DNA of 64,000 bases from assembly GCA_903822595.1 (NCBI GenBank), contig CAIJPS010000083.1:62001-126000 (forward strand), given 5' to 3'. Shown here one piece after another: positions 3,861 through 22,117 of this stretch. Made by a program: the position numbers and the translations under genes. Under the pieces are notes generated by a model. The model was given only the letters and a program-made list of their open reading frames with translations. It was not told where the DNA came from and made no database searches. The DNA comes from an uncultured Chlorobiaceae bacterium (GTDB lineage: Bacteria; Bacteroidota; Chlorobiia; Chlorobiales; Chlorobiaceae). Numbering within the stretch: position 1 is the first letter of the stretch; every line of letters begins with the position of its first letter.

Positions 3861-4694
3861 TTATTGAACTGACTCCATCAGCTCCTCCTCTTCTTCAAAA
3901 AGCCTAAAATAAGGCTTTACCATTCCAAAACCCATCGAGTTCTTTTCGCCAAAGCCGCACTCATACCCGATCTCCATCAGCTCACGGGGAGCCCTCAGCC
4001 TGAACGGTGCAAGCGTCCCCTTGATCTTCGTCTCATCCGAACGCCCCTCCTTCAGCGTAATCAGCTTCTGAACCTTCCCATGCATCCGCTCCACATAAGC
4101 CTCATCAATGGCAAAATCAAACTGCCCGCTCTCGCACGAAAACGACCGCCCATGCAGCGTCTGATACTTCCTGCAAAGATTTTCAAGCAGCACCCTTTCA
4201 AACTCCTGATCTCCCGGATAAAGATACTGCGGATACTGATCAGGCTCCCGCTTCGTGGTACAAACCAGCGGCGAAAGCATAATAAACTCCATATCGCCAG
4301 TCAATTCAGGCTGATCAAGCTTCCGAACCGTCTCAACCCGGAACCGCTCATTGCCGATCCAGACATAGGGCTCCTGCAACAAGCCAATAACCAGATGCTC
4401 GATAAACTCCTCCTTCGGAGAAGAGATCGTAACATGCAGCAACGCCTCAGCGGTACTCATTGTCCCGTTTTCATGCATCACCCACTTCCGACGATTCCCC
4501 GGATAAAGCGGTGAAAAGGTAAACAGCTTGAACGCCCTGTTCTGAAGCCTGTACCCCTGATTATGCAACCGCTCCGCATACTCGCTTGAGCTTTTATCAA
4601 CGATGTTGTAGATCAGGGAGGAGGTGAGATGGCTGTTGTTTATTGGCAACGTCACCGTCCGCTTGCGGTGGGAGAGTTCGAGGGTTATGCGCAT
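3861..4694 (-). CDS. cas6: CRISPR pre-crRNA endoribonuclease Cas6
   Basis: A 277-residue RAMP protein and the last cas gene of the operon. The C-terminus has the glycine-rich loop typical of Cas6 (CGFGEKNSMGFGMVKPYF, about residues 247-264). The N-terminus begins with the beta strand of the first ferredoxin-like fold. Cas6 cuts the array transcript within each repeat to leave an eight-base 5' tag. The repeats here end in ATTGAAAC, the classic tag, so the array would be processed in the plus direction. Since Cas6 is separate here, the RT-Cas1 protein lacks the fused Cas6 domain seen in some RT-Cas1 proteins. Confidence 0.9.
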   Translation of the reverse strand: MRITLELSHRKRTVTLPINNSHLTSSLIYNIVDKSSSEYAERLHNQGYRLQNRAFKLFTFSPLYPGNRRKWVMHENGTMSTAEALLHVTISSPKEEFIEHLVIGLLQEPYVWIGNERFRVETVRKLDQPELTGDMEFIMLSPLVCTTKREPDQYPQYLYPGDQEFERVLLENLCRKYQTLHGRSFSCESGQFDFAIDEAYVERMHGKVQKLITLKEGRSDETKIKGTLAPFRLRAPRELMEIGYECGFGEKNSMGFGMVKPYFRLFEEEEELMESVQ

Positions 4695-4709
4695 AGCACA
4701 AGCTTGTGA

Positions 4710-5600
4710 TCAGTATTTATCTATGATTCTTCGCTTGAATTCCTGTTTCTTCAGCACATCATCTACTATTCCTGCAGGAGGAGCAAACTGAAGTGAAGTA
4801 ACAACAGGATAATACTTTTCTTTTGAATCATTATTTCTATCAGCCTTTATAGCGGACACATAAGTCGGTGATGCAAACCGCGGGCTGTCACAGCCATTTG
4901 CACAAGTTACATTAAGATGAGATGATTCGCCGATCATTTTAACCAGCTCATCTGCCGAGTACACTTTATTTCCTATGACTATTTCTTTTATATATGGATA
5001 ATCGCATGTGTATTTACTCAAAAAACGCAAAGATATCTGATCAGTCAATGGGTCATAGATATAATCGTTATTGATTGTATTTATACATTTAACAAGATCC
5101 TCAGAGCATTTCGGAAACCCGAATTCTTCACCATCTTTCTTTAAAATTCTCACACTTCCGAACCCTCTTCGACTCCTTTTTCCAAATCCACCCAATAAAC
5201 ATACAAGCACAAAAAGAGACTCAAGCATACTGATATTAAAGCCATAATTCTCAATCGACAATGATAAGAATACAACAAATTTTTGACCAACATTAAAAGC
5301 CTTTGATTTAGCCTTTTGCTTATGCGGCAATAGGTATTCATAGAAATTGTCATTCCATACGGGATGTGTTGTTCTAACAATTACGTTACTGCGTTTCGCG
5401 ACCTTACCCCCACATCCAAAAATATTTTCTTCCTGCCGCCTTAATTCCTTGATATCCAAATTCCCATTCATAGCACGCCACCAGAAACGTAGCGAGCCCT
5501 TGATTGAAGATGGTCGAATCTCTGGGTACCTGCCATCAGCACCAGCAAGAAACATGGGGGTAATGATTTCGCACTCAAACATAATGGTTTTCATATCCAT
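4710..5600 (-). CDS. cmr1: Type III-B effector subunit Cmr1
   Basis: A 296-residue RAMP protein. The N-terminus has the Cmr1 pattern TPMFLAGADG, then RPSSIKGSLRFWWRAM, and there is a glycine/arginine loop GGFGKRSRRGFGSVRI near residues 140-155. In Cmr complexes Cmr1 sits at the 3' end of the crRNA and helps capture target RNA. It lies 15 bases upstream of cas6 and 5 bases downstream of cmr6, so translation is likely coupled. Codon use is more AT-rich than in the flanking host genes. An alternative ATG lies two codons downstream. Confidence 0.9.
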   Translation of the reverse strand: MDMKTIMFECEIITPMFLAGADGRYPEIRPSSIKGSLRFWWRAMNGNLDIKELRRQEENIFGCGGKVAKRSNVIVRTTHPVWNDNFYEYLLPHKQKAKSKAFNVGQKFVVFLSLSIENYGFNISMLESLFVLVCLLGGFGKRSRRGFGSVRILKKDGEEFGFPKCSEDLVKCINTINNDYIYDPLTDQISLRFLSKYTCDYPYIKEIVIGNKVYSADELVKMIGESSHLNVTCANGCDSPRFASPTYVSAIKADRNNDSKEKYYPVVTSLQFAPPAGIVDDVLKKQEFKRRIIDKY

Positions 5601-5605
5601 TCTCC

Positions 5606-6700
5606 TTACCCGTGATTCTTGATGTATCCATATCCAACAGCTGTTTTTGCACCTATCCCATGATCTTCAAGCGCTTTTTTAAGCCATTCAGCAATCACTT
5701 CTGATGGCTTTTTCCCATTAAAATAAGGTAAATCAATTTCATGGTCATTACATTTTTTAACTCCGCATAAAAAGCGAAAAGTTGCATTTTGAACAGTCAA
5801 AAAATTGATCGGAATGGGTTCAAGGTAGTCTGCGGGTGGCACGATTTTAAGACCATTCTCCTCAGGCATGTAATAAGCTCCATAATGAGGATTCATGATA
5901 TCAACGCAGATTTCAGGAGCTTCCAACGGAAACGCATCAAAGAAATATACTTTGCCTCTGAAAGAATCACCCAAGGCTGTTGGCTCAAGGTGAAATTTCT
6001 CTTTCACTGGTATGTTGTTTTCAAAACAAATCTTTTTCACTTTGGCAGGACAACCGAAAATGTGGCAGAACCCCTTATCCTGTAAAGCTCGGGATTCAGC
6101 ATTCACAAGGGGGTACTCTTTTTCTTTTGGTGGAACCATGCCAGAATCCAGATCACCGAATATCTCAGTAATCATCCAGCTTCTGACAACTCCTTTTATC
6201 GCACTGCCTGGAATATACGGGATACCATAGACATGATGCAGCGTCATAGATGTTTCATGGACCGACTCGTTACCCAAACCGACGATCATACGCCAATCAC
6301 ATTTTGCCTCATGCTGTATGATGGAAAGCCCCAATGAGCAAATACTTTTCTTATGTCGATCGGCTATACCATGGATATCAATATCACCGTAGAAAGGGAT
6401 CGGATAAAAGATGACACGATGACGATCAGCCTTGTAAAAAAGAAACTTCTCCCCATCAAACCGAGCCGCCTTGTTGAGCTTCAGTGAAAAATTATCTATG
6501 AGAATACCGCCCACAGAAGATGCTCCTTTCAAAGCATCCCTCGTATCGGAAGGCATATAGGTTTGCCCGTCCACCGAGTTATTATCTATGCAATCTTTGT
6601 GTTGCAAACAATCCTCCCGGTTTTCTTCATTTTTTTCTGCAGATACCTCTATACCGATCTTTAGAGCCCCTTCCAAGAGTTGTTTTTTCCAATCCCCCAT
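5606..6700 (-). CDS. cmr6: Type III-B effector subunit Cmr6
   Basis: A 364-residue RAMP protein. The core signature GIPYIPGSAIKGVVRSW lies about midway, and the C-terminus has the glycine-rich RAMP loop GIGAKTAVGYGYI. The first 90 residues or so are poorly conserved and may be a linker. Cmr6 belongs to the backbone cap near Cmr1, holding the 3' part of the crRNA. It lies between cmr1 and the longer Cmr5-like gene, with gaps of 5 and 12 bases. Confidence 0.9.
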   Translation of the reverse strand: MGDWKKQLLEGALKIGIEVSAEKNEENREDCLQHKDCIDNNSVDGQTYMPSDTRDALKGASSVGGILIDNFSLKLNKAARFDGEKFLFYKADRHRVIFYPIPFYGDIDIHGIADRHKKSICSLGLSIIQHEAKCDWRMIVGLGNESVHETSMTLHHVYGIPYIPGSAIKGVVRSWMITEIFGDLDSGMVPPKEKEYPLVNAESRALQDKGFCHIFGCPAKVKKICFENNIPVKEKFHLEPTALGDSFRGKVYFFDAFPLEAPEICVDIMNPHYGAYYMPEENGLKIVPPADYLEPIPINFLTVQNATFRFLCGVKKCNDHEIDLPYFNGKKPSEVIAEWLKKALEDHGIGAKTAVGYGYIKNHG

Positions 6701-6712
6701 TTCACAGAAATC

Positions 6713-7405
6713 TTACATTGATAATTGAGAATGTTCGACAGTCAAACCTTCCGAAAAACGGCATAACCACCCCAAAAACACAAGCGCCTCAAGAGTAAGC
6801 ACTCGAGTTTTGGATGAATCCAGCTTCAATCTGAAATTCTCAATCAAATCGCCATTATCGCCTTCCAATAAAGGTTCGACAGCCATCAGCCTTCCACCAA
6901 GATGATCAAAAAGCAAACGATAGTATTTTAAATTTTTCTTTTTTTTATGCTTACCGATAAATGCCAGCGATGCACCAAGACCATTTGTACGAATCATCAT
7001 CTGCAGACTCTTAACGGCATTTGTATAATCTTTCTTGCCTGATGATGCCCCTCTTACTGCACATTGCCATGCCACCAGTTCGCATTCACCCTGGAATTCA
7101 ATGTCGTTTTCCGCAGTTTTTTGTGCGCCCTCTGCTGGTGCTATAGGCCCCGCATTTACCCGAGATCCGGCTGGGGCATGACGAAGACTCAGATGAGGCG
7201 AAACAGAAAAAACCTCTCCACCAATGCGCAGAGAAATAATTTGACCATTTTCTTTTTCGACATTGCAAGGCTTTTCGTGATGCAAGGTCTTGTCAAGTAA
7301 ATCGCGAATTCCAAAGGGCACGGCTTCGCCTTTAGCATGTGTATCTGCTGTATCAGGTTTAAGCCGCCAGATTCCTTTGTTGTCACAATACAATGTCGCC
7401 ATCAT
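6713..7405 (-). CDS. Second Cmr5-like protein with a unique N-terminal extension
   Basis: About 230 residues. The C-terminal 120 resemble Cmr5 and its neighbour: NGLGASLAFIG matches SGLAATLAFMF in the upstream gene, and LEALVFLGWLCRFSEGL matches GEALAFVTWLRRFADGM. Both arms frame a small helical bundle. The first 110 residues (charged, with short beta-like segments and an Ala/Pro-rich linker near 80-100) have no counterpart in the ordinary Cmr5, and I do not recognise them. The gene overlaps the end of the canonical cmr5. An ATG at 7414 is also possible, but the AAGGAG sits too close to it, so 7405 (or 7402) is better placed. It probably arose by tandem duplication. Confidence 0.75.
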   Translation of the reverse strand: MMATLYCDNKGIWRLKPDTADTHAKGEAVPFGIRDLLDKTLHHEKPCNVEKENGQIISLRIGGEVFSVSPHLSLRHAPAGSRVNAGPIAPAEGAQKTAENDIEFQGECELVAWQCAVRGASSGKKDYTNAVKSLQMMIRTNGLGASLAFIGKHKKKKNLKYYRLLFDHLGGRLMAVEPLLEGDNGDLIENFRLKLDSSKTRVLTLEALVFLGWLCRFSEGLTVEHSQLSM

Positions 7406-7805
7406 GCACTCCATTCTCCTTCTTCTTGATCATGCCATCCGCAAAACGTCGCAACCAGGTGACAAAAGCGAGAGCTTCACCAGTTACAACCCGATATTCC
7501 CCATTTTCCAGCATTATCACCTGATGAACAAGTTCATTTTGTTCGGAATGCACTCTCAGCAAATGCAACTTCCTGAGCCAGTCGGCAAGCTGTGAATACA
7601 ACAGATCATGCTCATTTTTCCCTTTCTTAGAAAACATAAACGCAAGCGTAGCAGCAAGACCACTTGATTTAATTCTCATGGGGGTTTTCCTGACAAGCGA
7701 CTTGTATTCTTCCGCATATGACTCGTTGTTTGCGTCAGTGACACATTGAAACGCCTCGTTCGCTCGTTTTCGCTCGTGTTGTAATCGACTGCTGATAGCC
7801 GACAT
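7383..7805 (-). CDS. cmr5: Type III-B small subunit Cmr5
   Basis: 140 residues, helical, the normal size of Cmr5. It has the family pattern of an N-terminal Arg-rich helix, a central RIKSSGLAATLAFMF, and a C-terminal helix GEALAFVTWLRRFADGM. Cmr5 lines the belly of the Cmr complex beside the target RNA and does not cut it. A strong site (GAGGGAG) precedes the ATG. It lies 17 bases downstream of cmr4, and its end overlaps the start region of the second Cmr5-like gene. Confidence 0.85.
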   Translation of the reverse strand: MSAISSRLQHERKRANEAFQCVTDANNESYAEEYKSLVRKTPMRIKSSGLAATLAFMFSKKGKNEHDLLYSQLADWLRKLHLLRVHSEQNELVHQVIMLENGEYRVVTGEALAFVTWLRRFADGMIKKKENGVHDGDIVL

Positions 7806-7822
7806 GATGTTCTCCCTCTGGT

Positions 7823-8860
7823 TTACTTGATCGGTATCGTTCTTACAAGTCCTTTTCCTAGCGTAGCATTTCCACCTATCTGTACCACTTCAGGAAGATT
7901 CGTGATAAAGAAATCGGTAACAAGTACTGTTTCTGCCTGAGAATTTGATGGGCTTTCAGAGTTAGTGAAAAGTTTCTTTTTTTCGTCCGGCAGAAACACT
8001 GGCCCTGAAAAAACCAGCGAATAGAGAATACTTTCCGCAGGCAGATACTCTTCGGTGAAAAGCGCCCCGTCTTCAACTGTCCCTTTTGCGTTATCAATCT
8101 TTGTCCTGGTTATAACCTCGGTAGAAAGGTTAACAAAATCGGTGAAATCATCATTGTGAAGAATAACCAGAGCACTCGTTATATGATTTCGCCAGAATGC
8201 ATAGGTATCATTACCTTCACTGGGGGTTTTAAATAACCATTCGGCAAGAGTTTCTGCCAGTGCTTTGCAATAAGTTGTATCAACACTAGCCTTAAAGGAA
8301 TACTCTTCAAGAACAATCTTCTTCTTTGTAGCGTTCTCTTCCTGTGTATTGACTATAAGATCTGAGCTTGAAACAAGGCTTTCGCCCGACTTAATTTCAG
8401 GAACATTACTCTGGAGAATTGATTTCAATTTGCCAGCAGGCACCGTAACAATATTGAGTGACAGGTCCCTTCTGAACTGTTCCAGAACTTTTGGGGATGT
8501 AATCCAAGCATATACGCCCCGCATTGATTTGACAGGAAACAGTAGCAACCGTGCATCGGTGAACCCTATCGCTCCCTGAAACTGTTTGCATTCAGCAAAA
8601 TATGCTTTAACGTTGTCATTCTTTTTCTCATCATCATACCCGAAAGCAAGATGGATCTTTTTGCGATCATCATCATTTTCTGACAATACATTTTCAAATG
8701 CCTCCCGAAGGCTTCCCTTCAGGCTTGAACTTTCAATTTTGGGAAAAGACGTGTGCCGCTCACGCTGTATAGGGAGATCGACAACCCCAAGATCGCTGCC
8801 GCTTCCGGCATGCAGAGCAGTTTCGCAGACCATAAACAACGGTGTGGCTTTTTTATACAT
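7823..8860 (-). CDS. cmr4: Type III-B backbone subunit and target-RNA nuclease Cmr4
   Basis: A 345-residue RAMP protein. The N-terminal motif ALHAGSGSDLGVVDLPIQRE contains Asp28, at the position of the catalytic Asp that cuts target RNA every six bases in known Cmr4 proteins. KIESSSLKGSLREAF follows, and the closing glycine-rich loop is GGNATLGKGLVRT. With the catalytic Asp present, RNA cleavage should be intact. Several copies would form the complex backbone. It lies 12 bases from the CARF gene upstream and 17 from cmr5 downstream. Confidence 0.92.
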   Translation of the reverse strand: MYKKATPLFMVCETALHAGSGSDLGVVDLPIQRERHTSFPKIESSSLKGSLREAFENVLSENDDDRKKIHLAFGYDDEKKNDNVKAYFAECKQFQGAIGFTDARLLLFPVKSMRGVYAWITSPKVLEQFRRDLSLNIVTVPAGKLKSILQSNVPEIKSGESLVSSSDLIVNTQEENATKKKIVLEEYSFKASVDTTYCKALAETLAEWLFKTPSEGNDTYAFWRNHITSALVILHNDDFTDFVNLSTEVITRTKIDNAKGTVEDGALFTEEYLPAESILYSLVFSGPVFLPDEKKKLFTNSESPSNSQAETVLVTDFFITNLPEVVQIGGNATLGKGLVRTIPIK

Positions 8861-8872
8861 GGCTATTTCTCA

Positions 8873-10291
8873 TTAAATCAATTGAAAAACGTCTTTCTCT
8901 GAAACAGGACTTTGCATAAATGTCTGGAGAACAGGGGGAGCAAACATAATAAAAAGCCTGAAGTTTACGCCTGAATCCTCAAAAACAGAAAACAACTCTT
9001 TTGCCCAACACATCACTTCTTCCCTGATAAGCATGTTTTCTCCTCTTGTTAACTTCGTCGCCAAAACGCAACAATGAAACGCTGAAGCAAATTTAGCAAT
9101 GTATAATCTTTTGGCTATTACATCTGGCATTTCATCCTTTTTCATGAATTGTGTATAGGTTTTGCATTCGCACACCATAAAATCACACTCCTGCTCCACA
9201 ACCAGATCAAGTTCATTTGCATCAACCGTGTAACTGTTCCCATTGAGAATAACAGATGTTTTTTCCAACCCATGAAACACTTTTCGTGTCAACGGTTGAT
9301 GATGGTAATATTCAAACCATTTGTACTCGGCAAAGTAGCCATTCAACGTACTATCATGGCTCTTCCTCACCCATTTTTTAACCTCTTTTTGGCTCTTTGT
9401 ATAGGCAACCGCAAAAGATGCATAAAGCTCACCGACCTCTGTCACATTATAACCTTCATGATTTTTTACAAGCAACCCATTATCAAAAAATGGCATAAAC
9501 GTGTTATCATCGTCAACATTATCAACAGGAAATTGAAGTTCCCTTGATTTCAGTTTTTTGGAAACTTTTAAAAAGGCTTCTACATACCCCCAATCAAAGT
9601 TGATGGGAAGCTGTGGAAGTTGCAATAGTTGGCTACTCTCCTCATACAGATAGAAAACAGGGATTTTTTTGATCTGTGCAAGAAGAGTCAAAAACGGGAT
9701 CAAGGCCTTGTAACCACCGGATATATTCATAACGACATCCTCAATCGGAGTATTATCAACAATATTGATAACCGCATCGACCAGATGACCCAATCCCTGT
9801 TCTTTGAACCTTTTGTAATTTTTTATGTCAAGTTGTTTTACAGGCACAATATCAATTTCAATCCCATCAAGTGTAGGCGATTCCCGCATTATCTCTGCCG
9901 AAAGAACGGATAAAAGCGTATCTGTACAGAGGAAAACCACTTTTTCGATATTTCCCCATTGCCGTTGAATTTTTACCAGTGTGCTGATTTCCGCAGAAAC
10001 ATCGACATTACTAACTTTTTCATCAACTCTTGTCCAGCATCGTAGCCCATCATTCCATTGGACACCTTTTAACCACTTGCTTTCTATCACCTTTCTGACG
10101 TGTTGGCAGTAAACCTGAAGCGTTGGTTCAGAAACTGCGCCCGCATCAAAAGCATCTGCATCCTGCTGTGGATCAAGATCATTAATATCATCATCAATAG
10201 AGTCATATTCATCACCGAAAAAATTTCTTACTTCCAATCTCTGATAGTTGGTCAACACCGATGTACCTACTGTTGTTATCACTGTTTTCAT
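8873..10291 (-). CDS. CARF-domain effector with C-terminal PD-(D/E)XK nuclease
   Basis: 472 residues. Residues 1-235 resemble the CARF family that includes ring nucleases and Csm6/Csx1-like sensors: TVGTSVLTN at 7-15, the NISGGYKALIPFL loop near 189, and YLYEES near 215. An acidic insert (about 25-50) is unusual. Residues 260-300 could be a small winged helix (GLLVKNHEGYNVTEVGELY). The C-terminal part has a PD-(D/E)XK signature: Glu322, Asp362, then Glu375-Cys-Lys377. It is therefore probably a cyclic-oligoadenylate-activated DNA or RNA nuclease, comparable in logic to Can1 and Can2/Card1 but longer and with a different CARF subtype. Its stop region overlaps nothing; its start overlaps the end of cmr3 by four bases, so it is translated with the complex. 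Confidence 0.8.
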   Translation of the reverse strand: MKTVITTVGTSVLTNYQRLEVRNFFGDEYDSIDDDINDLDPQQDADAFDAGAVSEPTLQVYCQHVRKVIESKWLKGVQWNDGLRCWTRVDEKVSNVDVSAEISTLVKIQRQWGNIEKVVFLCTDTLLSVLSAEIMRESPTLDGIEIDIVPVKQLDIKNYKRFKEQGLGHLVDAVINIVDNTPIEDVVMNISGGYKALIPFLTLLAQIKKIPVFYLYEESSQLLQLPQLPINFDWGYVEAFLKVSKKLKSRELQFPVDNVDDDNTFMPFFDNGLLVKNHEGYNVTEVGELYASFAVAYTKSQKEVKKWVRKSHDSTLNGYFAEYKWFEYYHHQPLTRKVFHGLEKTSVILNGNSYTVDANELDLVVEQECDFMVCECKTYTQFMKKDEMPDVIAKRLYIAKFASAFHCCVLATKLTRGENMLIREEVMCWAKELFSVFEDSGVNFRLFIMFAPPVLQTFMQSPVSEKDVFQLI

Positions 10292-11448
10292 TTGCCGATT
10301 CCAAGTAATGTGATGCCATAACCTTCTTTGCTGTTACAAAAAGCTGGATTTGCAATGGATTTGCAGTGAAATGCTTCACTCAATTGATCGAAGCATGCTC
10401 CAACAGTAACCCCATCCTTCAGTTCAAAATAATAGACGCTTCCTGCCGGAACGGCTCGTTTCATTGATTTTGGCCTGCCATGCTTCATATCAAAACCCCC
10501 GAGATACAGAGGTCGACCAATAGCAGCCCCTATTAGTTCAAAACGGATATCGTTGTAGACCCCTTTAAGCATCCAGTCTGCCACCCATCCCTTGTCAAAA
10601 ATGGCTGGCGTCATGAGATACAGTTTAAACCGACGGCTCTCAGAATGGCGTAGCTCCGATATATTGAATTCGGGCATTTCCACAAGCCTGTAGGCAACAC
10701 ATTTACCCTCGGCACCCATTCGCAGTATGCCGCTGTCAGGAATATTAAGTTTATCATAGACAACAGCCAGATCAATCCTGGCCCCTGAACCACGAGACGA
10801 GGGCCTCACCATCCCTACACGGTAAAGCTTTCCCGTGTCTCCCGATGTACGTGTCTGGTCATCTCTGCCAATTCCCACCTTCGACTCAGAACAAATGTAG
10901 TCGGACAATTTTCTGACCTTATATGAAAAACCTGAAATCACTTGAGACCCATTTTTGAGATAGGTTATCAAATCCGATTTCGCCATCAAGCCCATTTCAA
11001 CGGGCTCTACTCGATTGTCGGTTTTGAGCATATGCAACCTTTCATCAAGTGAAGAACAACCCCCATTTTGCAATGTCAGAGAAAGAAGTTCAACTGAATA
11101 TCTTTTTTCGTTGGATTCTTTTAGTCTGATTTCATCATTTTTGTCTGTTCTCTCAACAAGATCAAGCGGCGCAGGAAAACAACTTATATTGCCGGGCATT
11201 ATCCGGTAAAACATCGCCATTATCACCAGAGCGGCTGTAAGGTCAGCAACCGAGTCTACTTTTGTGAGTTCGTCAATATGCTGGGTTAGGTACCCAGTCC
11301 TCAAAGCACCATAAACTACCGACGGTGATGGCGGAAAGATACCGTTGGCCCAGGTCTCATCTCCCATGGAAAACGGTCGTCCGTCACGAAAAAACAATGT
11401 GTCGAATGCCTCAATTATGATAGTGGTCGATGATTTATTCCCGCTCAT
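10288..11448 (-). CDS. cmr3: Type III-B effector subunit Cmr3
   Basis: A 386-residue RAMP protein. The N-terminal signature DTLFFRDGRPFSMG, followed by GIFPPSPSVVYGALRT, is diagnostic of Cmr3, and the C-terminus ends in a glycine-rich loop (KEGYGITLLGIGK). Cmr3 binds the 5' tag of the crRNA at the foot of the complex, next to Cmr2. It lies 12 bases downstream of cmr2 and overlaps the CARF gene by ATGA. Length is normal. Confidence 0.9.
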   Translation of the reverse strand: MSGNKSSTTIIIEAFDTLFFRDGRPFSMGDETWANGIFPPSPSVVYGALRTGYLTQHIDELTKVDSVADLTAALVIMAMFYRIMPGNISCFPAPLDLVERTDKNDEIRLKESNEKRYSVELLSLTLQNGGCSSLDERLHMLKTDNRVEPVEMGLMAKSDLITYLKNGSQVISGFSYKVRKLSDYICSESKVGIGRDDQTRTSGDTGKLYRVGMVRPSSRGSGARIDLAVVYDKLNIPDSGILRMGAEGKCVAYRLVEMPEFNISELRHSESRRFKLYLMTPAIFDKGWVADWMLKGVYNDIRFELIGAAIGRPLYLGGFDMKHGRPKSMKRAVPAGSVYYFELKDGVTVGACFDQLSEAFHCKSIANPAFCNSKEGYGITLLGIGK

Positions 11449-11460
11449 AATCCTAATACC

Positions 11461-13470
11461 TTAGTCAGTTTCGCGCATGATAAAGTTGCATATGTTGAGG
11501 GCTGACAAAAACACTGACAGTGACTTGACCTTTGAACTTTTCTTTTTCGTATCCGGATCATAGATAAAAGCTCCATCATAAAGCTGACGTACATGGCGAT
11601 TGACAATCTCAACTTCTTTTTCTCTCTCATAGCGGGACAAATCGTTGCTACATGAACGTGCAATCAATCGTGGCAACTCAATATCAATAAACCCACTATG
11701 CGTGAACTTGCCATCACTGTCAGAAAGCTGCCTAAATTCCAGTTCGAGAGTCTTTATAAAATTATTCGATACCCTTTTGATCGCAAGTTCACGGATCAAA
11801 ACCCCAAAATCATCAGTCACCCATTCAGTACCATTCTTCCACTTGTACCTTGCTTCCTCAATCTCCCCTGAATGCTTCATGACCGCAATGGAAAAGGCGT
11901 CTTTATCTTCATCGATTTGTTTTGCTTTGTGCTCCATGTCACGAGCCCGCCTCAGGACTTCTTGAAGAGGAGTCTTGTAATGCGCCACGGTAACCCCCGC
12001 TGAAAAGGTCAGATTCCTTCCTGAACCGAGATAATGCTGAAGTGGCTTGCTGACAAGGGTATCGTATGCCTCGCGCAAGCCTTTCATAAGAGAAAAAAGG
12101 CTGTTCAAATTGACAAAACCGAGAAAATCATCTCCCCCGGCATAAACACATTTACCTTTCGCCCTGTACACCGAATCACCCCGAAGAACGATAGTACTGA
12201 TATAATCCTTATAAGCAGGGTCATCTCTAACCGCATCACTAAGCTCTTCAAGCGTACCATCAAGGAATGCGCTTGCATATTCTGCAAAAATGCCAAGCCG
12301 CTCTGCAAGTTCCTGTTGAAATTTCTGAAGCCCTATGGACATATTCGACTGAAACTCCTCTATCTGATCAGTAACAGCAATCATATCACCCGACCACGTA
12401 CTGCCCATGCTATCACCATCGAAAACCAGCAAAGCGTAGTATTTCGACATTTTTTTCTTGCCATCACGAACCATTTTGGCAATTTCTTCCTGAACACCAC
12501 GGATCTTCGGAAGAACTCCTTTATCTACAAGTTCATGGTAACCCTGCTTTCTGAAATATCCCTCGCTAAGATTTTCCTCGAAATACAACTGCTCATTGAC
12601 AACATTGCCGTAACCGCTGAAAAAACTTTTAAAATCTTGCCCTTTCTTAGAGCTTTCTATATCACCAATCACATTCAGTAATGCAATTCTCGGTGTTGAG
12701 GGGAAATCGCACGCCTTCGCAAAATATCTTTTCACCAGCGAAACAGCACACAGACCTTCTCCTACATCCATAAGCGGTTTTTCCGTCAATAATACCGCGC
12801 CACTTTGAAGATGTTTTTCGCGAACCTCTTTATCCTGACTACTTGTATCCATCCCAGCTGGCCGATAATAGAGAGCATTATGCTCCCCATCAAGAGAACA
12901 TTTTCTTGCGGGAGGTTCATCAATCTGATTGAACTTGCGAGTATTTTTGATTGCAGAAATCGATTGTTGTATATCGTTATGCGTCTTCCGGTAACCAGCA
13001 ACTGATTCATCGACAGGAATGAGAACCCAGAAAATTTCAAGGAGATTGTCTATCTGCACCTTTGCGCCACAAGGTCTGACAGAGGCAAGGGCCTCATTAT
13101 CAAATTTATATCCCTGTTCTTCATCAAATCCATTTGTTCGGGGTTTATTACTTATTCCAGCATCATGAAATGATCGTAATGCTATACTAGTCCATCTCGA
13201 TCGTGCAATCCTTTCTATTTTTTTGCCAAAATCAGAGGGGTCATCAGTGTATATTCTTGCAAGTAACCTGTTCGGTTTTGCTTTTAGACAAGGATTTGGT
13301 ACAATTATTTTATTGCCTGTATTCAAACTTATTGTTGTATGGATAGCCACCTCGATAATCTCAGCTAAAATAGCACTACCCGCATACAAATCGCGTGTTT
13401 TGCGTGCTTGGGCTATGAAGCTCTGGACGGGACCGATGGTAAAGAGAAAAAGGTACTGCGTACTGGACAT
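11461..13470 (-). CDS. cmr2: Cas10/Cmr2, cyclase-active, lacking the HD domain
   Basis: A 669-residue large subunit of the type III-B complex. It begins directly with TIGPVQSFIAQARKTRD, which in most Cmr2 proteins follows an HD nuclease domain of about 200 residues. No HD motif is present here. The first palm has LVFDGDSMG near 349-356, and the second palm has AGGDDF with GGDD at 445-448, the signature for making cyclic oligoadenylates from ATP. DNA cleavage by Cas10 is therefore not expected, while second-messenger synthesis is. This is the first gene of the cmr operon. It uses ATG 13470; no obvious upstream extension exists in frame. Confidence 0.92.
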   Translation of the reverse strand: MSSTQYLFLFTIGPVQSFIAQARKTRDLYAGSAILAEIIEVAIHTTISLNTGNKIIVPNPCLKAKPNRLLARIYTDDPSDFGKKIERIARSRWTSIALRSFHDAGISNKPRTNGFDEEQGYKFDNEALASVRPCGAKVQIDNLLEIFWVLIPVDESVAGYRKTHNDIQQSISAIKNTRKFNQIDEPPARKCSLDGEHNALYYRPAGMDTSSQDKEVREKHLQSGAVLLTEKPLMDVGEGLCAVSLVKRYFAKACDFPSTPRIALLNVIGDIESSKKGQDFKSFFSGYGNVVNEQLYFEENLSEGYFRKQGYHELVDKGVLPKIRGVQEEIAKMVRDGKKKMSKYYALLVFDGDSMGSTWSGDMIAVTDQIEEFQSNMSIGLQKFQQELAERLGIFAEYASAFLDGTLEELSDAVRDDPAYKDYISTIVLRGDSVYRAKGKCVYAGGDDFLGFVNLNSLFSLMKGLREAYDTLVSKPLQHYLGSGRNLTFSAGVTVAHYKTPLQEVLRRARDMEHKAKQIDEDKDAFSIAVMKHSGEIEEARYKWKNGTEWVTDDFGVLIRELAIKRVSNNFIKTLELEFRQLSDSDGKFTHSGFIDIELPRLIARSCSNDLSRYEREKEVEIVNRHVRQLYDGAFIYDPDTKKKSSKVKSLSVFLSALNICNFIMRETD

Positions 13471-14545: not shown

Positions 14546-14830
14546 TCAAGAAATAATAAACGGGCTTTCAACTGCGAAGTCGCGGTTGCCGTCAATATCG
14601 ACTCGTTCGACGCAGTTCCGGCAGAGCACGTAGTAGCGGACGGAGTCGATCGGGTGTTTGGGGTCGAGGAGTTTTTGAAGGCGCAGGCGCATCATGGCGT
14701 ATTCCTCTTCGGAGATAAAGCATTCGAAGACGCTGTACTGCACCGCCAAACCATACCCTTCAAGGAGTTTATGGATTTTCGTCCTGCGGCGGTCGTTTTC
14801 GATATCGTAGGTCACCAGAATGAATTGCAT
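14546..14830 (-). CDS. cas2: CRISPR adaptation protein Cas2
   Basis: 94 residues, the usual size. The ferredoxin-fold start MQFILVTYDIENDRRRTK contains the conserved Asp after the first strand (TYDI), followed by the LEGYGLAVQYSVFEC helix-strand unit typical of Cas2. With Cas1 it forms the spacer integration complex. Unusually, it lies on the opposite strand from the RT-Cas1 gene and is separated from it by two non-cas genes, so the adaptation genes are not in one operon. It reads toward the cmr genes and may share a transcript with the two small genes that follow. Confidence 0.92.
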   Translation of the reverse strand: MQFILVTYDIENDRRRTKIHKLLEGYGLAVQYSVFECFISEEEYAMMRLRLQKLLDPKHPIDSVRYYVLCRNCVERVDIDGNRDFAVESPFIIS

Positions 14831-15559: not shown

Positions 15560-17743
15560 ATGGGATGGCTTTACAACCAGATGGCATTGCCTGAAACACT
15601 CTTTCAGGCGTGGAACAAGGTGGTTTCGAACGACGGCATGGCCGGGTACGACAAGCAGTCGATTACTGACTACTCGTGGCGCATTGAGGAGCATCTTGCC
15701 GACCTTGGCAGGCAGCTTTTGACCGGCACCTACGAGCCGCAGCCGCTTCTGAAGCTCGTCATGCTGAAACCAAGCGGGAAACTGCGTACCCTCCTGATTC
15801 CAACCGTGATGGACCGGGTTGCGGAAACTGCCGCCGCGATCGTGCTGACCCCTCTGGTGGAGTCGGAACTTGGAGCCAATACCTTCGCCTACCGCCCGGG
15901 GTTATCGCGCTTGACGGCAGCACATGAAATTGAGAGGCTGCGAAACCTTGGTTATAACTGGGTTGTTGATGCCGACATCAGCAGCTTTTTCGATACCGTT
16001 GACCACCCGCTGCTTTTTCAGCGCTTTCGTGAACTCTGTGACGACGAAGAGCTGCTGAAGCTGATTGCACGATGGCTGACCGCAGAGATTGTTGATGGGC
16101 AAAACCCCAAGGTAAAGAACAGTTCCGGCCTGCCGCAGGGCTGCCCCATTTCGCCAATGCTTGCCAACCTCTATCTCGACAAGTTCGATGAACGCATGGA
16201 AAAGGAGGGGTTCAAGCTGGTGCGGTTTGCCGATGATTTTCTCATTCTCTGCAAAACCAAACCAAACGCTGAAGCGGCCCTCCAGCTCTCCGAAAGCGCA
16301 CTTGCTGAACTGAAGCTGCAACTCAACAACGAAAAGACAAGAATCACCACCTTTTCGGAGGGGTTCAAATACCTCGGCTACCTTTTTATTCGCTCGCTGG
16401 TACTGCCCACCAAAATGCACCCGGAAGAGTGGTACGACAAACTCGGCAAGCTGAAACTCCGCAAAGCCCCGAAAAACCTGCTGCACCCTGCGGATAGCGA
16501 TGAGGATGAGTATGAACTGCAAACCGGCGACTCCGGCACCGTAACGGTGACGAAAGAGACGCTCCAGAAAACCGAATTCGGCGAAAAACTGCTGCAAAGC
16601 CTTGAAAAACAGCAGATTGATGTCGATCAGTTCCTTGCAAAAACGGCCAAAGAGGATGCCCAGCGGCAAAAAGAGAAGCACGAAGCGCTTAATAAACTTT
16701 ACTCTCCGCTGCTCAACACCCTTTACTTGCAGGAACAGGGCAGCATTCTGCGCAAAGATGGCGAACGGTTCAGCGTTGAAAAAGAGGGCAAGCAACTCAA
16801 CGACATTATTGTCCGCCGGGTAGACCAGATTCTGGTGCTTGGCAACATCACGCTCACCACGCCAGCCATGCAGTACTGCATGAAAAGCAACATTCCCGTT
16901 ACCTTTGTTTCGCAGCATGGCAGCTACTTTGGCCGACTCGAAGCCACCACGGCCGACAACTCGGCGGTCGAGCGCTTTCAATACCTTCGCTCACTCGATG
17001 AGCCCTTTGCCTTCAGCATTGCCAGCCGCATTGTGGAGGCAAAAATCAGAAACTCACGCACCATGATCCAGAAGCGCAAAGCCATGGCATGGGAGAGCAA
17101 CGGAGAGCTGAAAGAAAAATTCGACACCACCCTCTCCCTCATGACGTCGCTTTCCGAACACACCAAAAACTGCGAAAACATGGAGGCGCTCCGGGGACTT
17201 GAAGGCAAAGCCGCCGCACTCTACTTTGAACTTTTCGGACTCCTCTTCAAAAAAGAGCTTCCCTTTTACACTAATGCATTCCGGCGGGTTCGTCGCCCGC
17301 CAACCGACCCGGTCAACAGCCTGCTCAGCTTCGGCTATACCCTGCTGCACAACAACATCTTCTCCCTCGCGCGCATGAAAGGGCTCAACCCCTACATCGG
17401 CTTTCTGCACGCCGAAGACAAGGGAAACCCGGCACTGATCAACGACCTCGTCGAAGAGTTCAGAACCATTATCGACTCCATGACGCTCTACACCCTCAAC
17501 AAAGGAGTTTTACGAAACAAGGATTTTTATTATCGTAAAGACAAAGCAGGATGCTTTCTCAGCGATGAAGCCCGAAAAAAGTTTTTGGAACTCTTTGAAC
17601 AGCGGATGTGGGAAGAGTCGCTCGACCCGTTGAGCGGTAAAACCATGAACATCCGGCGCCACATTGAATCGCAGGTGGTCAAAATCAGCGAAGTGCTTGC
17701 CGGAACAAGAGCTGTTTATGAACCCTGGCGGACAGAATGGTAA
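15560..17743 (+). CDS. cas1: Reverse transcriptase-Cas1 fusion protein
   Basis: 727 residues. Residues 60-280 are a group II intron-like reverse transcriptase: DADISSFFD with catalytic Asp139, SGLPQGCPISPMLANLYLD at 189-207, the active-site box FADD at 223-226 (Phe replaces the usual Tyr), and LNNEKT. A charged helical linker follows (290-380). Residues 385-727 are Cas1, with metal ligands Glu548 (GLEGKAAALYF), His617 (GFLHAED) and Glu near 632-633 (DLVEEFR). Such fusions capture spacers from RNA as well as DNA. No Cas6 domain is fused at the N-terminus. A CGGAG site precedes the ATG. The array leader begins at the stop codon. Confidence 0.95.
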   Translation: MGWLYNQMALPETLFQAWNKVVSNDGMAGYDKQSITDYSWRIEEHLADLGRQLLTGTYEPQPLLKLVMLKPSGKLRTLLIPTVMDRVAETAAAIVLTPLVESELGANTFAYRPGLSRLTAAHEIERLRNLGYNWVVDADISSFFDTVDHPLLFQRFRELCDDEELLKLIARWLTAEIVDGQNPKVKNSSGLPQGCPISPMLANLYLDKFDERMEKEGFKLVRFADDFLILCKTKPNAEAALQLSESALAELKLQLNNEKTRITTFSEGFKYLGYLFIRSLVLPTKMHPEEWYDKLGKLKLRKAPKNLLHPADSDEDEYELQTGDSGTVTVTKETLQKTEFGEKLLQSLEKQQIDVDQFLAKTAKEDAQRQKEKHEALNKLYSPLLNTLYLQEQGSILRKDGERFSVEKEGKQLNDIIVRRVDQILVLGNITLTTPAMQYCMKSNIPVTFVSQHGSYFGRLEATTADNSAVERFQYLRSLDEPFAFSIASRIVEAKIRNSRTMIQKRKAMAWESNGELKEKFDTTLSLMTSLSEHTKNCENMEALRGLEGKAAALYFELFGLLFKKELPFYTNAFRRVRRPPTDPVNSLLSFGYTLLHNNIFSLARMKGLNPYIGFLHAEDKGNPALINDLVEEFRTIIDSMTLYTLNKGVLRNKDFYYRKDKAGCFLSDEARKKFLELFEQRMWEESLDPLSGKTMNIRRHIESQVVKISEVLAGTRAVYEPWRTEW

Positions 17744-17993
17744 AACCGGAGGATAATTGCAAAACTGACAAAAAAGCAGGGAAAACAGGCTTATCCTTTT
17801 ATTGAGTAATGCGTTACAGGAGACTAAAAAAACCATTATGCTCCGGTTTTTGCATAACTCATCATTATTTCATAACATGCAAACTGTCGATCAATCACGA
17901 ATCAGTACAATGTCCCTTGACATGACTGAAAAATACCGAACCTCCGGTTTTTGCGCCACCAGCCCTTATCAGGCGCAGGTTTCCAGAGGTAGG
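17744..17993 (+). promoter_or_regulatory. CRISPR leader with a repeated CTCCGGTTTT motif
   Basis: 250 bases between the RT-Cas1 stop and the first repeat, with no gene. CTCCGGTTTTTGC occurs twice in direct orientation (17841-17853 and 17942-17954), and its core is present inverted as AAAACCGGAG at 17742-17751. A 6-bp inverted repeat, TGCGCC at 17952-17957 with GGCGCA at 17972-17977, lies just before the first repeat. These elements are candidates for the promoter-proximal integration signals. Orientation is supported by repeat decay at the far end of the array and by the ATTGAAAC repeat end. Confidence 0.75.
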
Positions 17994-20900
17994 CACCATA
18001 TCTAATTGCACGCACAGCGGATTGAAACCTTTCGTCTCCTTTTTTTGATTGTTGTTGGTTCATACACCATATCTAATTGCACGCACAGCGGATTGAAACG
18101 CGGATGCGACCGCTATCGGTAAGCCTCTTCCATGCACCATATCTAATTGCACGCACAGCGGATTGAAACCGATTTCATCAAGGACATCATCAACATCACT
18201 TTTTCACCATATCTAATTGCACGCACAGCGGATTGAAACACAGTAACACGCCGCTTCAATATACGCCCAGCGTCGTCCAACACCATATCTAATTGCACGC
18301 ACAGCGGATTGAAACTTTTTTTATTGGAAAATTCAGGCACTCCTCTCAGTCACCATATCTAATTGCACGCACAGCGGATTGAAACTCATCAGCCATGGCT
18401 TCTTGATATATCCTGGCAATCACCATATCTAATTGCACGCACAGCGGATTGAAACTCAAAGCCCTTGAGCTCTTGACTGCAAACACCGAGCCACCATATC
18501 TAATTGCACGCACAGCGGATTGAAACCAATAGTTTTTTCTTTAATCATGACAGGTTTGCCGATCACCATATCTAATTGCACGCACAGCGGATTGAAACTA
18601 TTTCCAATATACTGGGTAGCAGCAATTGTACTTACACCATATCTAATTGCACGCACAGCGGATTGAAACAGGGGGTGTTCCAGCGGAGCCACTTGCCTTA
18701 CTTGCCACCATATCTAATTGCACGCACAGCGGATTGAAACACAATGGATCCACCCGTCAGTCCCAATTCCTTAATCGCCACCATATCTAATTGCACGCAC
18801 AGCGGATTGAAACATAGCAAGAGATGGGGGAGCAATCTCGTCCAGCATCATCACCATATCTAATTGCACGCACAGCGGATTGAAACAAAGTACGGTTTCA
18901 TAATTTTCCTTTGGAAAAGTTAGCACCATATCTAATTGCACGCACAGCGGATTGAAACTGAGGGCAATTGGGGCCGCATGATAACCGACATAGCACCATA
19001 TCTAATTGCACGCACAGCGGATTGAAACTTGAGATTATCGTATGCGAGATTTCCAAGCAGGACACACCATATCTAATTGCACGCACAGCGGATTGAAACT
19101 TTGTTTAATTTTGAAGGAGTTGGCTACTCCAAAAAAACACCATATCTAATTGCACGCACAGCGGATTGAAACAAATTGTGGAAAGATTTCAAACTTTGGT
19201 TTACCATACACCATATCTAATTGCACGCACAGCGGATTGAAACTTGCCTTGCTTGTGCGGTTTACACGGCTGGTGGCTGCGACACCATATCTAATTGCAC
19301 GCACAGCGGATTGAAACGGAATAACCTTCTCAGTAATTGTTTTGTTCAAGTCATTCACCATATCTAATTGCACGCACAGCGGATTGAAACGGGAATTATT
19401 TCCTCCTTCCAGACCCAATCCAACTCACACCATATCTAATTGCACGCACAGCGGATTGAAACTTCATCCGTAAACCTCCTTTTCAAAAGTTGTGTTCCAG
19501 CACCATATCTAATTGCACGCACAGCGGATTGAAACGTTTGTCGCGGTGCAGCGACGAATCGGAACAGCCGCACCATATCTAATTGCACGCACAGCGGATT
19601 GAAACTTTTTTTAGAGCAAGGGCGCTTTCATTAAACGCGCCCTTCACCATATCTAATTGCACGCACAGCGGATTGAAACGCGACCGCAGGGAGCCACTGG
19701 TCCCAAGTACCAGTCACCATATCTAATTGCACGCACAGCGGATTGAAACAAAGACGGCTTCTACAAGACCAACTTCCTTGTAGACACCATATCTAATTGC
19801 ACGCACAGCGGATTGAAACTTACAAGCCTCACACTCAAGTGAGGTTACTGGCTTCCACCATATCTAATTGCACGCACAGCGGATTGAAACAACATGCCGT
19901 CATAGGAATCGTAATGCGTGACAATCACCATATCTAATTGCACGCACAGCGGATTGAAACCAAATAAAATACCTTTCCAGAACGTACCGTATCCTAAACA
20001 CCATATCTAATTGCACGCACAGCGGATTGAAACTGTTACAGAACAAACCCATCCGATAGATGGCCTCCACACCATATCTAATTGCACGCACAGCGGATTG
20101 AAACTCCATCTCCGATTACGTAAGACGAGGCCCCATTGAAACACCATATCTAATTGCACGCACAGCGGATTGAAACCAAGGCTCGATGGCGTCCATGGAA
20201 GCCATCCGTTCACCATATCTAATTGCACGCACAGCGGATTGAAACTCCATCCGGAACATGCTCGGATGTTCAGGCTCGCTTCCGACACCATATCTAATTG
20301 CACGCACAGCGGATTGAAACTTTACCACCTCCCCACGTATTCATTTGATGCCGATGGACCGCAAAGTCCATCACACCATATCTAATTGCACGCACAGCGG
20401 ATTGAAACAAAAGCTTTCATGGAGGTGTTAATTTCCCTCCGGTTTGCCACCATATCTAATTGCACGCACAGCGGATTGAAAACAAACAATTTCCCTGTAA
20501 CTTTCTCTGAGGTTGGCAGTTCCACCATATCTAATTGCACGCACAGCGGATTGAAACTGAGAAATGATCATCAGGTCATTATTCTGTTTCTTAAACACCA
20601 TATCTAATTGCACGCACAGCGGATTGAAACTGTGCAGCGCCCGAAGCAGTAGTAATGCTGTCAATCACCATATCTAATTGCACGCACAGCGGATTGAAAC
20701 AAAAAAATTTCCACTCCTTGCTTGAGCATCCGCTAACTGCACCATATCTAATTGCACGCACAGCGGATTGAAACGATGGCGATATACCAAGATTTCATTT
20801 TTACTGCGTATCACCATATCTAATTGCACGCACAGCGGATTGAAACAGTAAAAACCAAGCTCCCGAAGGAGCTGCTCTGTATCACCATATCTAATTGCAC

Positions 20901-21645
20901 GCACAGCGGATTGAAACTAGGATCTTGGAAAGTTGCCACATTGCCATTATGCGTAAACCACCATATCTAATTGCACGCACAGCGGATTGAAACTTGCAGG
21001 TAGTTGACTCCCAACACCACACCACCGACCACCATATCTAATTGCACGCACAGCGGATTGAAACTTTTTAATGCCAGCAGAATAATCAACTTTTTTTGTT
21101 GCACCATATCTAATTGCACGCACAGCGGATTGAAACGATTAATGAAAGTCTCCCTCGTTTTGCCGGTGTACACACCATATCTAATTGCACGCACAGCGGA
21201 TTGAAACGCCTGATGAGCAGTCCGTGAGCTTCATATATGGAACGGCTGGCACCATATCTAATTGCACGCACAGCGGATTGAAACCATTTGAGACAAAAAA
21301 CAACATAATAATTTAGACTACACCATATCTAATTGCACGCACAGCGGATTGAAAGTGGAAGTCTCTCGTTCCTCCGTCCGGCGGCGGTCGCCGTCACCAT
21401 ATCTAATTGCACGCACAGCGGATTGAAAGTCAATGCCTCAGTGCTTGAAGTGGCGCATACCGGTAAAGACACCATATCTAATTGCACGCACAGCGGATTG
21501 AAACTTTGATGGATTTATGATAATTCCACGATGAGCTGGACACCATATCTAATTGCACGCACAGCGGATTGAAACGTCGATTTCAGGGTAATACCGATTT
21601 CCCTCGACAACCATAATATCTAATTGCAAGCATAGCGGCTGATAC
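17994..21645 (+). CRISPR. CRISPR array: 50 intact repeats, one decayed terminal repeat, 50 spacers
   Basis: The repeat is 35 bases. It starts CACCATATCTAATTG and ends GCGGATTGAAAC. The first repeat is at 17994-18028 and the last intact one at 21541-21575. A decayed copy at about 21609-21645 has several substitutions and ends the array. Spacers are mostly 33-42 bases; the one at 20321-20373 is 53. The repeat at 20448 has an extra A near its end. Those at 21321 and 21395 end in G instead of C. The tag ATTGAAAC at the repeat end and decay at the distal side put the leader on the left, next to RT-Cas1. Several spacers contain perfect short inverted repeats. Confidence 0.98.
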
Positions 21646-21805: not shown

Positions 21806-22117
21806 ATGAGCATCTATACTATTGCTGTGGAAGGGGATAATGTGCTGCGGCTGGGGTTTGGGGATACTCCGGCACAAAATGATGCACTGGTGAAGGAGGC
21901 TGCACAACAATTGAAGGAGTTGATTGATGGCGGGGTAATCAGAGGGGGGGAACTGATTAAGCTGAACGGCCCGGCAACGTTGCCGATTGCTTTTGTGCTG
22001 GCTCACAAGCTTAATCACCTTTATCAGGCGGTTGCGGTCTATGATCCTAAATTATCAAAGTATGTGGTGGCTATTGCGCATGGGGGCAAGTACCGCGTGG
22101 GTGATCTTGTTGAGTGA
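21806..22117 (+). CDS. csx3: Csx3, type III CRISPR ring nuclease
   Basis: 103 residues. The C-terminal half matches Csx3: IKLNGPATLPIAFVLAHKL, His67 and His71 in the LAHKLNH segment, AVAVYDPKL with Asp80, and VVAIAHGGKYRVGDLVE. Csx3 proteins degrade cyclic tetra-adenylate, the type III alarm molecule, working as small oligomers. Here it would switch off the CARF nuclease encoded in the cmr operon. It lies 160 bases past the array on the plus strand, separate from the operon, so its expression may be independent. No strong ribosome binding site precedes the ATG. A broken second copy lies at 23553-23693. Confidence 0.85.
   Translation: MSIYTIAVEGDNVLRLGFGDTPAQNDALVKEAAQQLKELIDGGVIRGGELIKLNGPATLPIAFVLAHKLNHLYQAVAVYDPKLSKYVVAIAHGGKYRVGDLVE

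Follow-up and report, generated by a model that had tools for sequence, protein, structure and literature searches.

Perfect inverted repeats in the spacers of a green sulfur bacterium's RT-Cas1 array, and a weak RT-linked bias towards long hairpins

Which molecules supply the spacers of CRISPR arrays whose Cas1 integrase is fused to a reverse transcriptase (RT), and does folded RNA supply more than its share? The spacer source of RT-Cas1 arrays has been termed 'enigmatic' (PMC5513706). A 64,000-nt stretch of DNA from an uncultured Chlorobiaceae bacterium (hereafter the window) raises the question anew, since an initial annotation of its sequence had reported too many perfect inverted repeats among the spacers of an RT-Cas1 array and had proposed structured RNA, such as transcript-end hairpins, as a preferred source. 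The locus of this green sulfur bacterium proved to be an unexceptional RT-Cas1 array of type III-B, composed as follows:

3861–13470, minus strand: type III-B operon, with the genes from cas6 to cas10/cmr2 below, each assigned with Pfam and NCBIfam
3861–4694, minus strand: cas6
4710–5600, minus strand: cmr1
5606–6700, minus strand: cmr6
6713–7414, minus strand: gene for a second Cmr5-domain protein
7383–7805, minus strand: cmr5
7823–8860, minus strand: cmr4
8873–10291, minus strand: gene for a CARF/APE2256 protein
10288–11448, minus strand: cmr3
11461–13470, minus strand: cas10/cmr2
14603–14824, minus strand: cas2 (PF09827, E 7.6e-23; G000:C83:76603-76824), divergent from RT-Cas1
15560–17743, plus strand: RT-Cas1 fusion gene, 727 aa (Pfam: RVT_1 at residues 70–274, Cas1 at 388–681)
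17744–17993, plus strand: putative leader, between the RT-Cas1 stop and the first repeat
17994–21645, plus strand: CRISPR array, 50 repeats of 35 nt and 50 spacers of 34–53 nt
21806–22117, plus strand: csx3-like gene (PF09620, E 3e-6), directly downstream of the array

RVT_1 and Cas1 occupy a single 727-aa frame whose best RT model is group_II_RT_mat, which identifies an RT-Cas1 module, and the translation retains intact RT motifs (SGLPQGCPISP and FADD), including the Y/F-x-D-D active-site motif. Cmr1, Cmr2, Cmr3, Cmr4, Cmr5 and Cmr6 were all matched (NCBIfam/Pfam), placing the effector in type III-B. The locus resembles that of Marinomonas mediterranea MMB-1 (PMC5576922, PMC11014452), where RT-Cas1 and Cas2 also stand by a type III-B Cmr effector and arrays and where spacers are likewise about 35 nt long. 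Unlike in MMB-1, cas6 stands as a gene of its own and the fusion showed no N-terminal Cas6 domain, the operon for the effector lies on the opposite strand and includes a CARF gene, and the array is followed by the csx3-like gene, which possibly encodes a ring nuclease. The genes at 6713–7414 and 7383–7805 overlap in tandem and carry a Cmr5 domain each, one of them with about 110 additional N-terminal residues. Several relatives (L049, G056:C126, G015:C58, G040:C83) have pieces of RT-Cas1 that cover the C-terminal part of Cas1, in some cases on a contig that also carries an intact copy, as though the gene's 3' end had been left behind again and again. The 64-kb window holds no tRNA genes.

The repeat of the array (CACCATATCTAATTGCACGCACAGCGGATTGAAAC, 35 nt, Rfam CRISPR-DR38) occurs in 50 copies and is followed by one degenerate terminal repeat at 21612–21645; this degenerate copy lies at the far, old end, so spacer 1 would be the youngest. 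The CRISPR repeat was also the only known RNA family that Rfam detected within the array. Nine perfect stems are present exactly where the initial annotation had placed them, in spacers 13, 23, 24, 25, 26, 31, 32, 33 and 40:

18904–18918: spacer 13, TTTTCC/GGAAAA, loop of 3
19618–19644: spacer 23, AAGGGCGC/GCGCCCTT, loop of 11, 3' arm flush with the spacer 3' end
19696–19714: spacer 24, ACTGGT/ACCAGT, loop of 7, flush with the spacer 3' end
19760–19784: spacer 25, TCTACAAG/CTTGTAGA, loop of 9, flush with the spacer 3' end
19827–19844: spacer 26, CCTCAC/GTGAGG, loop of 6
20185–20206: spacer 31, GATGGC/GCCATC, loop of 10
20248–20268: spacer 32, CATCCG/CGGATG, loop of 9
20353–20372: spacer 33, GATGGAC/GTCCATC, 7 bp, loop of 6, ending 1 nt short of the spacer 3' end
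20858–20873, minus strand: spacer 40, a stem with a UUCG loop and then TGGTTTTT, an intrinsic-terminator-like hairpin with its U-tract in antisense

Spacer 23 begins with seven T residues, and spacer 32 contains an additional, overlapping stem (GAACAT/ATGTTC, 20254–20271). Spacer 33 (20321–20373) is an outlier in length, with 53 nt against 34–42 nt for all the others.

The over-representation of stems in this array was borne out. Against the nine hairpin spacers observed among 50, dinucleotide shuffles yielded 2.5 (sd 1.5, p ~0.001) and length-matched real chromosomal DNA 2.4 (p 0.0005), so that the earlier estimate by hand, about two in 50, had been a good one; with loops of up to 25 allowed, the nine compare with 3.9 expected (p ~0.01). 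The hairpin spacers also cluster, as had been remarked, forming five adjacent pairs where 1.5 were expected (p 0.003–0.004), and seven of the nine fall within spacers 23–33; their position side by side perhaps points to a single acquisition burst. Such clustering was absent from the other RT arrays and is confined to the window. Because the window was noticed for its many stems, these p values are post hoc. It has the top hairpin rate among 73 arrays of at least 12 spacers, and the array ranked second, a type I-B array (L097:282-8130), has no RT and carries hairpins in 19 of its 118 spacers. Folding z-scores in the window's spacers average -0.33 +/- 0.18 and do not differ from those of other RT arrays (-0.18) or of type I-C arrays (-0.24). 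We infer that the local excess is mostly a high draw by chance, with a weak but real bias beneath it. The type I-B array of L097 nearly equals the window in its rate on a larger sample, and its stems include terminal ones of 9 and 11 bp.

If the RT were responsible for the short stems, other RT arrays should share them. By the criterion of the initial annotation (perfect stem of at least 6 bp, loop 3–11), we compared 526 spacers from other Chlorobi/Bacteroidota RT-Cas1 loci with 2823 spacers from non-RT loci, namely type I-C, type I-B with Cas1b-Cas2-Cas4, and others; in the more distant loci the presence of an RT was settled by domain search, and L133 and L134, which have none, were placed in the non-RT set. 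An RT-specific excess did not appear: with the window left out, 32/526 RT spacers (6.1%) and 164/2823 non-RT spacers (5.8%) carry such a stem (OR 1.05, p 0.76). The same measure did not separate the two classes in a second set, of 348 spacers from plasmid RT or RT-Cas1 loci, mostly cyanobacterial (36/348 RT against 33/407 non-RT, p 0.31). Spacers at large, with or without RT, exceed shuffles in stems, including those of type I-B non-RT arrays. The type I-B Cas1b arrays of Chlorobi/Bacteroidota (L091-L098, L136-L175), served by Cas1b-Cas2-Cas4 without RT, are like the window in having more perfect stems than shuffles, if only mildly so, and differ from RT arrays in that long stems are rarer. 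Folding energy shows no mean difference between RT and non-RT spacers, and the idea of a higher folding energy in RT spacers was rejected on that ground.

A difference between the classes emerges with long stems. In the first set, stems of at least 8 bp were found in 11 of 576 RT spacers, the window included, where real DNA would give 4.0 (p 0.003), and in 21 of 2823 non-RT spacers against 15.2 expected, at a cut-off that was picked after this set had been seen and with several thresholds tried. Before the second set was collected the endpoints were fixed: the primary one counted stems of 8 bp or more that lie flush with a spacer end, the secondary one all stems of that length regardless of position. 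For the secondary endpoint, 11 of the 348 RT spacers scored, against 1.1 in shuffles and 3.2 in the DNA of the same plasmids (p 5e-4). Non-RT arrays on cyanobacterial plasmids gave 3/407 (p 0.016 against the 11/348), and the type III arrays among the non-RT ones 1/247 (p 0.035), in a comparison where the non-RT arrays may differ from the RT arrays in host or prey.

Pooling the sets, with a few further loci added, gave 990 RT and 3230 non-RT spacers from 126 arrays, of which 22/990 (2.2%) and 24/3230 (0.7%), respectively, carry a stem of 8 bp or more. In a model that allows loops of 3–25 and adjusts for length, GC and group, the OR for such stems is 2.7 (1.4–5.3), or 2.5 (1.3–5.0) once the window is removed. 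It climbs with the minimum stem length, from 1.36 at 6 bp through 1.7 at 7 and 2.7 at 8 to 4.4 at 9 (1.3, 1.7, 2.5 and 4.7 with the window removed), which argues for real structure rather than an effect of composition. Permuting the RT labels among arrays within groups, again without the window, gave p values of 0.05, 0.006 and 0.0018 for minima of 6, 7 and 8 bp. The loops of long stems in RT arrays are mostly of 3–6 nt, like those of real RNA hairpins, and loops as tight are also found on many non-RT long stems. Since thresholds were explored, we regard the long-stem excess as a lead with moderate support: in this exploratory analysis, RT-linked arrays as a class hold about 2.5 times more spacers with hairpins of at least 8 bp and hardly more with short stems. 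The proposal that RT-Cas1 prefers structured RNA thus survives in part, in the greater share of long stems in RT arrays (2.5–2.7-fold after adjustment in the pooled data, and again seen in the second set), and loses both its excess at 6 bp and above and its transcript-end hairpins, as terminators occur at expectation. What is newly measured is a weak RT-linked bias towards long hairpins, and we take it to hint, weakly, at more frequent copying of folded RNA by RT-Cas1 systems.

The reading that we favour, and to which we give about an even chance of being right, is that the window holds an ordinary RT-Cas1 array with a stem count that is high by chance, within a class that has a weak bias towards long hairpins acquired via stable RNA fragments. 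RT-Cas1 would sample fragments of RNA decay, among which those with a stable hairpin would be shielded from exonucleases, and cuts by RNase III at structured RNA would leave the 3'-OH that RT-Cas1 needs to add a short DNA tail. Stably folded mRNA fragments, mostly internal ones and not terminators, would then enter the array somewhat more often. The RT-Cas1 of Marinomonas extends the 3' ends of RNA with short stretches of DNA and then integrates the tailed RNA, and RNase III products with a 3'-OH have been named as its likely substrates (PMC11014452); given tailing and such fragments, an over-sampling of stable structured pieces would be a natural consequence. At the same time, spacers acquired in Marinomonas are spread evenly along genes, with no RNA region favoured (PMC11014452), and this caps how large such a bias could be. 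The Marinomonas text that was searched contains no discussion of a hairpin bias in its spacers, and the account of the RT-linked type III-B array of Arthrospira/Spirulina, which is like ours in that spacer sources are almost never found, mentions neither spacer hairpins nor Chlorobi (PMC5513706). The effect is small (2.2% against 0.7% of spacers). If true, it would provide a mark of RNA-derived acquisition that can be read from sequence alone and used on thousands of genomes, and stable RNA fragments would be what RT-Cas1 systems remember.

The strongest competitor, which we consider distinctly less probable and still a serious contender, is that nothing but chance and a look-elsewhere effect is at work, the window having been picked for its stems and the class difference having arisen from the choice of threshold and from host differences. 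It would explain why RT and non-RT arrays have equal rates under the original criterion (OR 1.05), why the runner-up of the 73 arrays (19/118) has no RT, why spacers generally exceed shuffles whether RT is present or not, and why the adjacency of hairpin spacers is confined to the window. It does not account for the difference in long stems between RT and non-RT arrays, which persists without the window, nor for the second set, which exceeds its own DNA in long stems.

A third possibility concerns stems at spacer ends. The cDNA or RNA could fold back at its 3' end and be extended by the RT, so that the terminal inverted repeat would be newly made and missing from the source. Some RT-Cas1 spacers, for example 23, 24, 25 and 33, would then be unfaithful copies in which snap-back DNA synthesis made both the terminal repeat and a 3' DNA end for integration. 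Snap-back products are made in vitro by Marinomonas RT-Cas1/Cas2, although the authors argue that snap-back would not yield the tailed duplex that integrates (PMC11014452). The 3' arm of the stem is flush with the spacer end in spacers 23, 24 and 25 and one base off in spacer 33; among the 11 long stems of Chlorobi/Bacteroidota RT arrays, 7 coincide exactly with a spacer end, where real DNA gives 31% (p 0.04), and two spacers of 51 and 44 nt (L011:361 and L038:7115) open directly with a perfect 10-bp hairpin whose loop is 3 nt. However, the primary endpoint was missed in the second set, with two terminal long stems against 1.0 expected in real DNA (p 0.27), and long stems near spacer ends occur in non-RT arrays too. 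In type I-B arrays, 15 stems stood at the spacer 3' end against 3.6, an excess that shrank to 22 against 13.6 in a larger set. Overlapping spacers between arrays, a natural test of terminal repeats, yielded one pair, which was uninformative on this point. We judge snap-back improbable, both in general and for these four spacers.

Searches for the sources of the spacers bear on the remaining explanations. The window array had no credible blastn match in phage and plasmid records, and a full protospacer was found for none of the hairpin spacers in those records, in 98 Chlorobi genomes or in IMG/VR; for two cyanobacterial RT arrays the search returned only self, other-array and simple-repeat matches. 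Of the hairpin spacers, only 24 and 25 found partial matches in exact scans of IMG/VR. Spacer 24 has 22 nt in common with collagen-like coding repeats of viral contigs and resembles them over its first 24 nt, and spacer 25 has 20 nt or slightly more in common with one viral contig, which may be a chance match; coding sequence is thus a plausible source of both. That the block of spacers 23–33 derives from a single invader whose genome is extensively folded (an RNA or ssDNA phage, for instance) would fit the seven of nine hairpin spacers in the block and their adjacency (p 0.004), yet with no credible phage or plasmid match for the array, and with spacer 24 resembling the coding repeats of viral contigs, we consider it very unlikely. 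Least credible of all are intrinsic terminators (transcript-end hairpins) as the preferred source, an idea suggested by the minus-strand hairpin of spacer 40 with its UUCG loop and T-tract and by spacer 48, which covers the last codons and stop of purH, and rejected because terminator motifs are at expectation in the 526 other RT spacers (8 observed, 8.1 expected; non-RT 42/2823) and not significantly above it in the window (GC-rich stem then T-run, 2/50 against 0.7, p 0.17), with the T-run of spacer 23 on the wrong side of its stem and the likeness of spacer 24 to coding repeats also speaking against it.

When the concatenated spacers were compared with the 98 Chlorobi genomes, spacer 48 (21430–21469) alone gave a good match, being antisense to the end of purH (final codons and stop) in most of the genomes searched. 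The match reaches 32/32 nt in the best relative, the purH of the home genome differs from the spacer (97% over a 30-nt match), and the first eight bases of the spacer match no aligned relative. It is a spacer against a housekeeping gene, as expected if host-type mRNA is captured, and possibly a self-targeting one. The first spacer bases offer an indirect sign of acquisition from RNA. Cyanobacterial RT arrays show a weaker and non-significant bias towards an initial T, and in Chlorobi/Bacteroidota, the window's array included, 48% of RT spacers begin with T against 33% of non-RT spacers (TT in 27% against 12%, p 2e-17), starts that fit dA tails on the 3' end of the other strand.
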